Origin: Stigmatella aurantiaca DW4/3-1
GTDB taxonomy: Bacteria; Myxococcota; Myxococcia; Myxococcales; Myxococcaceae
DNA: 64,000 nt
NCBI RefSeq assembly: GCF_000165485.1
Contig: NC_014623.1
Location: forward strand, 5,784,893 to 5,848,892
Direction: 5' to 3'
Shown: in pieces, positions 759 through 3,019 of the stretch
How positions within the stretch are numbered: position 1 is the stretch's first letter
Layout of the letters: the number at the start of each line of letters is the position of its first letter
Translations under genes and position numbers: made by a program
The notes under the pieces: generated by a model
What the model was told of the DNA's origin: nothing
Seen by the model: the letters and a program-made list of their open reading frames with translations, nothing else
Databases searched by the model: none

Positions 759-2117
759 CTATAACGAAGCACTGCCTCTTCTGCTTGGCCCAGGTGGTGA
801 AGCCCACAGCGACTGTCTGGAAACCACCTTCTCCCGCGGCGCCGCCCACAGCCCTGGCACCCAGAGCACCTGGCCCCGTGCGTCCACGACGACGGGGTGG
901 AGATCTCGACGCTCGGCGGGCATCCGAAGGTCCACGAGCACATCCTGCAGCTTGCGCGAGCCGTTCTTGCCCCGGAGCCGGTCTCCTGGACGGCGAAGCC
1001 GCACCGTGAGGGGCCAGCACGTCTCCTCGGACAGCGGCAGGACGAGCGCGCCAGGGGGCTCCTCGCCTCCCCGCACTTCGAAATGCCAGCCCGTCTCTGC
1101 CCAGGGGCCCGAAGCCCCTGGGCCCTCCAGGGCCAACGCCCTCGGCTCGGGCCGGGACACCGGCACCCTGACGCACCGCACCAAACCTCCCGAGGCGCGG
1201 AGTTGGAGGCCATGGCTCAGCGTCGCGGAACGGCCTCCCTCCACCGCCGCCAACACCCGCTCCAGCGTCGCCGCGTCGACGACGGCCCTTGCCTCTGCCA
1301 GCAAGCGGGCGAGCACCCGGCGGCGCAGCGGAAGCTCCAAGGCCCGGACACCCACCGCATCCAGTCCTTCTCCAGACCCCCTCAGGCGATCCCACGCGGC
1401 ACCAGCCAATGATTGGAGCAAGGCCTCATCCTCGGCCGCCAGCCGTGCGAACGAGGCCAACCGCTCCGTCACCGGGTAGCCCACGGCCTGGGTGAGGGCT
1501 GGAAGCACGTGGTGGCGGATCCGCGCGCGGAGGAAGCGCGGATCCGCGTTCATCGGATCCACCGCGAAGCCCTCCTCTTGCTCCCCCAAGAACGCTTCCA
1601 CCTGCTCCCGGGTGAGCGCGAGCAGCGGGCGCACGAGCACACCGCGCGCGGATGTGATGCCGGTGGCGCCCCGGAGCGAGGTGCCACGGGCCAGCCGCAT
1701 GAGCAGCGTCTCGGCCTGATCCGAGGCGGTGTGCGCGGTGGCGATCGCCGCCAGCTTCCTCTCCGAGCAGAGCTGCGAGAGGGCCGCGTACCGTGCCTCG
1801 CGTGCCCGCACCTCCAAGCCAGGACCCTCCTTCACGTGGAGCGAGCGCACATGGCAGATCATCTTCTGGCGCGCAGCCAGACGCTCGACCGCTCGAACCT
1901 CTTCCATCGCCTCGGGCCGCAGGCCGTGATCCAGCGTGGCCACCTCCACCAGGATCCCCAAGCGCTCGCGCACGAGCGCCGTGCCCAGCAGCAACGCGGT
2001 GGAATCCACGCCCCCCGAGACGGCGAGCAACACGGAGCGGTGCGCGAGGCCCACAGAACGAAAGGACGCCTCGAGCGTCCTACAGATGAGTCGAGTGGCG
2101 CGGCGGGGGCGAGGCAT
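759..2117 (-). CDS. tilS: tRNA(Ile)-lysidine synthetase TilS
   Basis: ATP-dependent enzyme that converts C34 of tRNA-Ile2(CAU) to lysidine so that it reads AUA. The PP-loop ATPase motif SGGVDST lies at residues 34-40 of the form that starts at the ATG at 2117. Other family signatures are TLDHGLR, the TAHTASDQAETLLMRL block, and the C-terminal substrate-binding domain with RRPGDRLRGKNGSRKLQDVL. An upstream GTG at 2210 is in frame but would add 31 residues without N-terminal homology, so I prefer 2117. Length (452 aa) is normal. A tRNA with a CAU anticodon, a possible substrate, lies in this window at 46057. Confidence 0.93.
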   Translation of the reverse strand: MPRPRRATRLICRTLEASFRSVGLAHRSVLLAVSGGVDSTALLLGTALVRERLGILVEVATLDHGLRPEAMEEVRAVERLAARQKMICHVRSLHVKEGPGLEVRAREARYAALSQLCSERKLAAIATAHTASDQAETLLMRLARGTSLRGATGITSARGVLVRPLLALTREQVEAFLGEQEEGFAVDPMNADPRFLRARIRHHVLPALTQAVGYPVTERLASFARLAAEDEALLQSLAGAAWDRLRGSGEGLDAVGVRALELPLRRRVLARLLAEARAVVDAATLERVLAAVEGGRSATLSHGLQLRASGGLVRCVRVPVSRPEPRALALEGPGASGPWAETGWHFEVRGGEEPPGALVLPLSEETCWPLTVRLRRPGDRLRGKNGSRKLQDVLVDLRMPAERRDLHPVVVDARGQVLWVPGLWAAPREKVVSRQSLWASPPGPSRRGSASL

Positions 2118-2259
2118 CACGAGTGGAGGGGGAATGGATTTTTCGCAGGCCACGTTACATGGCACGCAGATGGGTGGAAGGTGCAGGGGCTGGGCGGGCG
2201 AACCCCTCACGGGGAAGCAGGTTGAAGCCAGGCCGGAATAGAAGACCTGGCCTGCGGTG

Positions 2260-2288
2260 TTGATTATCAGAGAGTCGCTCTCGAAAAT
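2260..2288 (+). promoter_or_regulatory. Candidate promoter of the 2295-2412 RNA, with a palindrome in the spacer
   Basis: TTGATT (2260-2265) and GAAAAT (2283-2288) are 17 bp apart and match the sigma-70 consensus at 4 of 6 positions each. The spacer holds a palindrome, GAGAG-TCG-CTCTC (2270-2282), well placed to be an operator or part of the leader. The transcription start would be near 2295. Confidence 0.35.
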
Positions 2289-2294
2289 TCTTGA

Positions 2295-2412
2295 CGTTGG
2301 GCCTAGGGGTCCCCCCCCTCCCCCTCTGGGCCCACGGGGCCGCTGGGATAATTTTCCGGCGGTCCCTCTTTCCAGAACGCCCCGGGCCGATTTCTAGGCC
2401 CGGGGCGTTTCT
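2295..2412 (+). ncRNA. Candidate small RNA with three stem-loops
   Basis: No protein is encoded here, but three hairpins follow one another. Stem 1 pairs 2298-2303 with 2329-2334 and carries a loop rich in C. Stem 2 pairs 2336-2346 with 2356-2366: 11 bp with two G-U pairs and a 9-nt AT-rich loop. Stem 3 is a perfect 13-bp terminator (2376-2388 with 2397-2409) followed by TTTCTCTTTT. A promoter-like pair lies just upstream, and the next gene has its own promoter at 2471. The C-rich loop could pair with Shine-Dalgarno sequences, which is inference. A three-hairpin, about 120-nt RNA recalls Pxr of Myxococcus, but I cannot align the two. Confidence 0.5.
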
Positions 2413-2470
2413 CTTTTCGGCCCTAAAAGTGCCTCATCCCGAAGAGTTGCGTGGGAGGCTTCCGAAACCG

Positions 2471-2499
2471 TTGACCCGCTAGTGCGTCTGTCGGATAAC
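2471..2499 (+). promoter_or_regulatory. Promoter of the tandem RHH genes
   Basis: TTGACC (2471-2476) and GATAAC (2494-2499) are separated by exactly 17 bp. The start would be near 2506, about 45 nt ahead of the ATG at 2550. Confidence 0.55.
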
Positions 2500-2761: not shown

Positions 2762-3019
2762 ATGTCGTCCACAGATCATCGCAAGCAGAGTCTCTATTTC
2801 CCGGAGGACATGCTCGAGGAGATCCAGCGCGAGGCGACTCGGCAGGATCGCTCGCTCTCCTGGATCGTCCAGCAGGCCTGGAAGGTGGCCCGCGGGGACA
2901 TCCGGAAGATGCCTTCCGTCAATGACGTGCTCAGCCCAGTGCCCGCCAAGCCGGTGCCCGTGGCGCCCGCGGTCACCCCCGTACCGGTGGCCGCGATTGA
3001 CGGCGAGCCCAAGCCCTAA
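2762..3019 (+). CDS. Ribbon-helix-helix small protein (second of a tandem pair)
   Basis: An 85-residue paralogue of the preceding gene. Over the 39-residue RHH core, 33 positions are identical by eye. It differs by a longer C-terminal tail of Pro, Val and Ala (PVPAKPVPVAP...), probably flexible. The 8-bp gap to the first gene points to one transcript, and the proteins could form homo- or heterodimers. Two GC-rich hairpins follow the stop codon. Function is not known beyond the predicted DNA-binding fold. Confidence 0.8.
   Translation: MSSTDHRKQSLYFPEDMLEEIQREATRQDRSLSWIVQQAWKVARGDIRKMPSVNDVLSPVPAKPVPVAPAVTPVPVAAIDGEPKP

Follow-up and report, generated by a model that had tools for sequence, protein, structure and literature searches.

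What is encoded in the interval between tilS and the two small genes that are divergent from it in Stigmatella aurantiaca DW4/3-1? The question arose from a first-pass annotation of a 64,000-nt stretch of contig NC_014623.1 (the whole stretch analysed, hereafter the window), which had proposed a self-contained small RNA (sRNA) with its own promoter boxes, two stem-loops, one of them with a C-rich loop, and a terminator, and had likened it to Pxr, an RNA that controls development in Myxococcus. The elements that it described are all present in the sequence at 2260-2417, and we define the features of the locus as follows.

2296..2417, plus strand: sRNA gene, comprising stem-loops SL1 and SL2, a linker, the SL3 terminator and a U-rich end (from folding, covariation and covariance model R1)
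2298-2309 paired with 2323-2334, plus strand: SL1, a 12-bp stem and the most conserved part (100% of cells paired)
2310..2322, plus strand: C-rich 13-nt loop of SL1, UCCCCCCCCUCCC, the presumed pairing seed
2336-2348 paired with 2354-2366, plus strand: SL2, 13 bp including G-U pairs
2367..2374, plus strand: linker UCUUUCCA between SL2 and SL3
2375-2388 paired with 2397-2410, plus strand: SL3, 14 bp including one G-U pair, the terminator typical of the window's family
2408-2417, plus strand: U-rich end UUUCUCUUUU, the initial three U of which lie inside the SL3 stem
759..2210, minus strand: tilS, the divergent neighbor, given as the longest ORF (TIGR02432, 153.2 bits; the actual start probably lies downstream of the ORF's first codon)
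2550-2753 and 2762-3019, plus strand: two TIGR04563-family genes (123 and 120.9 bits), the RHH pair of the first-pass annotation
2260..2288, plus strand: candidate sRNA promoter boxes TTGATT (2260-2265) and GAAAAT (2283-2288) with a 17-bp spacer, read from the sequence
2471..2499, plus strand: promoter-like sequence of the TIGR04563 genes, TTGACC-17-GATAAC (from a pattern count)

Three hairpins are predicted by folding for 2296-2417 on the plus strand. The 118 nt at 2295-2412 fold at -80.9 kcal/mol (z = -7.0), whereas 200 dinucleotide shuffles give -54.45 kcal/mol (sd 3.78), and 0/200 of the shuffles fold as well as the native RNA. Both of the proposed stem-loops exist, with the C-rich loop in SL1, although SL2 has 13 bp with G-U pairs and not 11. 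The terminator with its U tract is also there, but its stem is of 14 bp including a G-U pair rather than a perfect 13, and the first three U are part of it. A terminator scan picked SL3 (2375-2410); taken by itself this is weak evidence, because shuffled sequences average 0.7 terminators versus the one found. The G-U pairs and the direction of the terminator make the plus strand the likely transcribed one. The locus is matched by R1 at 2296-2420 with 120 bits and the runner-up elsewhere in the genome has 21.5 bits; by this search the gene looks single-copy in S. aurantiaca.

Strong support for an RNA gene comes from its relatives. The alignment for the window's family contains 79 sequences, after removal of identical duplicates and of the truncated copy L059, and the RNAalifold consensus of 39 pairs was scored on its 78 distinct rows. 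The hairpins are kept in these related genomes, a point on which the first-pass annotation had made its reading depend: 96.9% of cells are paired and 25 of the 39 pairs have changed on both sides. None of 500 shuffles (0/500) reached the native alignment on any of five measures, and slid versions of the alignment drop to 37.6-63.1% paired. SL1 pairs in 78/78 distinct family sequences, with five pairs changed on both sides and with U-G and G-U the most frequent combinations at two pair positions, while double changes occur in 8/11 consensus pairs of SL2. In a wider set of 59 sequences aligned to R2, a two-hairpin model, 19/24 pairs have double changes, a figure that leans towards the model since the alignment was fitted to it. 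Taken together, the gene looks like a real structured RNA.

The SL1 region has hardly moved. Among the 59 diverse sequences the loop region has six C columns that never vary, the U that separates the C runs persists in at least 90%, and the length of the first C run is 6-8 in most cases and 4-5 in a few. The UCUUU of the linker is invariant or nearly so in the window's family. The initial 40 nt, which take in SL1, are identical (40/40) between the window and L126, a copy from another family whose tilS match is 46% identical. Other copies outside the window's family diverge more (L107 26/40 and L090 25/40, ungapped, with loop length shifting the register). In these alignments very strong constraint acts on SL1 and its C-rich loop, and SL1 is nearly unchanged in sequence across the order Myxococcales.

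The same comparisons bear on the reading that the locus encodes a small protein, or is a cluster of terminators that arose by chance, and is no RNA gene at all. A 63-aa ORF with a TTG start does overlap the sRNA, but the loop varies in length by 1-2 nt between clades, which disfavors a coding frame, and the covariation speaks against both versions. We rejected the small ORF on the strength of the loop length changes and regard the reading as a whole as almost certainly wrong.

How far the RNA extends was determined in genome collections that hold one genome per species, in searches for which covariance E-values are rough and the scores are those of first-look candidates. Using blastn (E <= 0.01), the region was found in 84/96 genomes of the window's family, at least one match (G086, contig 43) being non-syntenic. 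A covariance search, a check that the first-pass annotation had suggested, was run across the order Myxococcales, and R1 identified the sRNA in 125/145 genomes and 38/46 genera, in eight families of the order: 88/96 genomes of the window's family (8 misses) and 37/49 of other families (12 misses). Several of the 20/145 order genomes with no R1 match are incomplete or fragmented. R2 matched in 127/195 genomes of the phylum, the sole one outside the order belonging to the same class and having the RNA beside tilS as well. R2 also recovered L148, a diverged copy located within the tilS to TIGR04563 interval of G086, a family genome of 2.1 Mb; this copy is strongly diverged yet its position is kept. 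One genome (G137) carries two copies of the RNA arranged head to tail (L140:3093-3264).

An exact-core pattern that captures the majority of copies, though not every one, found 55 stretches in a collection of 84,980 species. Their named genera are Myxococcus (with M. xanthus AM003, L155), Corallococcus, Pyxidicoccus, Archangium, Hyalangium, Citreicoccus and Anaeromyxobacter, and the other titles are metagenome-assembled genomes labeled as Myxococcales, Myxococcaceae, Archangiaceae, Deltaproteobacteria or Proteobacteria, along with one Comamonas. The latter record (Comamonas sp. KCTC 72670, BNCN01000007.1, L159) contains the RNA and is probably misnamed. The exact-core pattern had zero matches in viral contigs and blastn had zero in plasmids or phages, and a mobile origin was rejected on these grounds. 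The sRNA probably dates back to about the common ancestor of the order.

The genomic context was counted for 124 copies in 123 loci (the family hits in G009 and G013 were left out). A tilS gene is upstream and divergent in 124/124 copies, whereas the position of the TIGR04563 genes is less fixed: they follow on the same strand at no more than 700 nt in 95/124 copies, lie 1.5-3.2 kb off in 22/124, and were not found in 5/124 despite at least 2.9 kb read (2/124 were untestable). In several deep lineages the sRNA and the TIGR04563 genes are separated by a long minus-strand ORF, whose N-terminus appears lipoprotein-like by eye in some of them. These data decide against the idea that the RNA acts in cis, as a leader or attenuator, on the TIGR04563 operon that follows it. 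While the proximity of the genes in most copies is what such a leader would lead one to expect, a promoter-like sequence belongs to the operon itself: TTGACC-17-GATAAC at 2471-2499, the separate RHH promoter foreseen in the first-pass annotation, recurs as a pattern in 65/66 family loci, with 0.9 expected from shuffles. Because of this promoter, and because in deep lineages the genes lie far off or are absent, in several cases with the long ORF in between, we rejected the leader reading, which we consider very improbable. On the evidence of its surroundings the sRNA is a unit separate from both tilS and the TIGR04563 genes. An independent feature of the locus is that the first TIGR04563 protein (2550-2753) has matches 85-100% identical across the family loci, at least 94% in most, in loci where tilS is mostly 46-81% identical; this is slow evolution for a small protein.

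The promoter of the sRNA itself is less clear. The proposed boxes, TTGATT-17-GAAAAT, are present in the window, but a comparable pattern occurs in just 6/80 distinct family upstream sequences (1.0 expected) and the promoter scan found no promoter. In a second upstream set, which includes three family loci, the pattern was seen in 9/41 sequences versus 0.4 in shuffles. What is conserved upstream in 67 family sequences is a T at -8 (96%), a T at -7 (81%) and a G at -3 (93%). As a putative autonomous transcription unit the sRNA has its terminator and its independence of neighbors in its favor, while a promoter of the simple form is rarely conserved.

The copies outside the window's family differ in architecture. 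They consist of SL1 and SL2, and SL2 ends in a T-run, making it the terminator: at least six T in the 8 nt directly 3' of SL2 were counted in 34/38 of these copies versus 12/86 in the window's family. Conversely, a third hairpin (<= -15 kcal/mol) is present in 84/86 family copies, 80 of which have a U-tail, whereas it occurs downstream in 12/38 of the other copies and has a U-tail in one (two could not be judged). We infer from this distribution of hairpins and U-tails, and not from a tree, that the two-hairpin form is ancestral and that SL3 would be a later addition, a new terminator in the window's family. The T-run of the other families is at the position that matches the window's linker, and UCUUUCCA, with its UCUUU, may be the decayed U-tract of the ancestral SL2 terminator.

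The three hairpins and the C run in the SL1 loop are what had suggested Pxr, and likeness to Pxr does hold for the general shape. It goes no further, as the window copy scores 18.9 bits and the M. xanthus copy 19.5 bits against a gathering cut-off of 80 for Pxr (RF01812), and the genuine Pxr of S. aurantiaca sits at a separate locus with 134.8 bits. Pxr was found (E <= 1e-4) in 93/145 order genomes, all from the window's family (93/96), and had a match in 0/49 order genomes outside it. Three of the Pxr loci (L347, L349 and L350, from G003, G034 and G035) contain Pxr as tandem arrays of five copies each, about 290-330 nt apart. The tilS-linked sRNA occurs in families without a Pxr match, including that which holds Anaeromyxobacter. 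Given the separate Pxr gene, the score below cut-off and the presence of the RNA where Pxr is unmatched, we rejected it as a Pxr orthologue; for the last of these reasons a role in development is not supported by the genomic distribution. The interpretation in the first-pass annotation is partly supported: covariation, synteny and order-wide conservation give strong backing to a self-contained structured sRNA with a C-rich loop of anti-Shine-Dalgarno type, and the comparison with Pxr is limited to overall shape.

A looser relationship, in which the sRNA is a paralogue or ancestor of Pxr and acts in the same switch from growth to development, deserves more discussion. Over 30 Pxr loci (88.7 kb) R1 gave 44 matches at E <= 1, of which 40 are full-length on Pxr copies, two are partial on Pxr terminator hairpins and two are elsewhere; the full-length matches fall in 24/30 loci and reach 33.3 bits, and the secondary R1 matches in two genomes (G034 and G012) are Pxr copies. 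R2, on the other hand, scored at most 19.7 bits on the Pxr loci and 16 bits on the Pxr of the window's own genome, which neither R1 nor R2 listed at E <= 10 in the genome searches. Moreover, ar14 (31.6 bits) and sX13 (20.9 bits) score higher with the sRNA than does Pxr, so the similarity of Pxr to R1 is read as a shared design that may be general. Together with the families that have the sRNA and no Pxr match, these results render a functional Pxr relative distinctly improbable, while the two RNAs may share a common descent. The two RNAs have much in common: a similar length (the pxr coding region is 108 nt), three predicted hairpins, a C-rich SL1 loop, a variable SL3 and a host without Hfq. 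In PMC5684412 the SL1 loop is described as essential for Pxr function. They differ in locus, in stems and in range, Pxr having been found in one family versus eight for the tilS-linked RNA, whose copies in other families have two hairpins. PMC5568312 describes the origin of Pxr as recent.

Among other known sRNAs, the tilS-linked RNA reaches no family cut-off in Rfam; the only match at cut-off in the whole window is a tRNA elsewhere. Below threshold, the top scores of the window copy are mir-1915 (21.5 bits, other strand) and sX13 (20.9 bits). Those of the M. xanthus copy, besides Pxr, are ar14 (31.6 bits, aligned over the whole model), Xoo2 (23), P11 (21.1, other strand) and ncS037 (20.7), to which a narrower scan adds ar7 at 24.1 bits; those of the two-hairpin copy L126 are mir-540 and CcsR1. 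These matches are mixed, since they include C-loop sRNAs but also families without such loops, e.g., mir-1915 and P11. With Xanthomonas sX13 (RF02232) the RNA shares C-rich loops, stable hairpins and a putative mode of action, the Hfq-independent repression through G-rich motifs described for sX13 in PMC3771888. It differs in having one long C-rich loop where sX13 has three C-containing loops, and in its distant bacterial group; its scores (20.9 bits for the window copy and 14.5 for the M. xanthus copy) are far from the sX13 cut-off of 50. The alpha-r14/NfeR1 RNAs, which the literature connects with the 'cuckoo' RNA family (RF02344), share three hairpins with it and, presumably, an anti-Shine-Dalgarno loop and Hfq independence. 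However, every alpha-r14 hairpin carries CCUCCUCCC, according to PMC10746234, and this motif is absent from the window copy, where a long C-rich loop is found in SL1 and in no other hairpin; the RF02344 cut-off of 58.8 bits compares with 31.6 for the M. xanthus copy, and the window copy is unlisted. The RNA was unreported in the literature searched, although a survey of M. xanthus DK1622 (Whitworth and Swain, 2020, as cited in PMC8538405) may list it, and in that literature we found no functionally characterized myxobacterial sRNA other than Pxr. The tilS-linked RNA would add a family absent from Rfam 15.

How might such an RNA act? We think it probable, if not assured, that it is a trans-acting sRNA that works without Hfq by pairing its C-rich loop with G-rich ribosome-binding sites, in the manner of sX13 and alpha-r14. 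In this mechanism a rigid SL1 would display UCCCCCCCCUCCC as a pre-formed seed. By pairing with Shine-Dalgarno regions that are rich in G and resemble GGGAGGGGG, the seed would block the entry of ribosomes on several mRNAs and so lower translation without Hfq. SL2 and SL3 would stabilize and terminate the RNA, and the window's family could have two forms side by side, a short one that stops at SL2 and a long one that stops at SL3. We favor it because sX13 and NfeR1/alpha-r14 repress through such loops independently of Hfq, as presented in PMC3771888 and PMC10746234. The feature typical of C-rich-loop sRNAs, a conserved C-rich loop exposed in a stable hairpin, is present. Consistent with this mechanism, Hfq (PF17209) was detected in 0/40 order genomes by a search that was positive in 5/14 control genomes, and M. 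xanthus is described as having no hfq homologue in PMC5684412.

The targets were sought with the pattern GGGAGGGGG-N-ATG in three genera (G000, G018 and G077), with all places fetched. There were 65, 24 and 21 places, respectively, versus 20, 17 and 7 for reversed-pattern controls, and 32, 13 and 11 ORFs of at least 60 aa lie behind 63, 24 and 21 loci. No conserved target set was found among the ORFs of these three genomes: a single protein pair was shared, which looks internal to an NRPS-like protein. The test is a strict one because sX13 needs only GGGG; a further pattern, GGGGAGGGG-N-ATG, was scanned in ten genomes. The neighboring TIGR04563 mRNAs were rejected as targets, as pairing of the loop with their leaders was no better than with shuffles (RNAduplex, 14 loci).

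The missing partner set is one of two observations that would fit a protein-binding RNA, in which the SL1 stem and C-rich loop form a recognition site and the RNA titrates or scaffolds a protein without pairing to mRNA, a logic akin to that of 6S and CsrB. The other is that the stem, and not just the loop, is near frozen in some comparisons, as in the 40/40 nt of L126. Nevertheless, the stem does change with compensation, which indicates that its exact letters are not strictly needed, and for C-rich loops it is mRNA pairing that has precedent. We therefore judge a protein-binding role unlikely and retain pairing to ribosome-binding sites as the preferred reading.

With a wider distribution than Pxr and an almost frozen sequence, in fruiting myxobacteria and Anaeromyxobacter alike, the tilS-linked sRNA probably serves a basic function. 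One could go further and envisage a core translational riboregulator of this Hfq-lacking order: an anti-Shine-Dalgarno RNA, at first with two hairpins, would have acquired a second terminator in the window's family, and with it regulated short and long forms, and would have become the template for Pxr, the developmental gatekeeper, by duplication; this fuller scenario we regard as quite unlikely. The RNA offers a system, order-wide and Hfq-independent, for studying targets, the short and long forms, and how terminators evolve. Finally, repeats of about 160 nt in six genomes (G062, G065, G077, G059, G014 and G006) score about 30-35 bits with R1 among the matches listed; apparently they belong to a hairpin repeat that is unrelated to the sRNA and has at least several copies in each genome.
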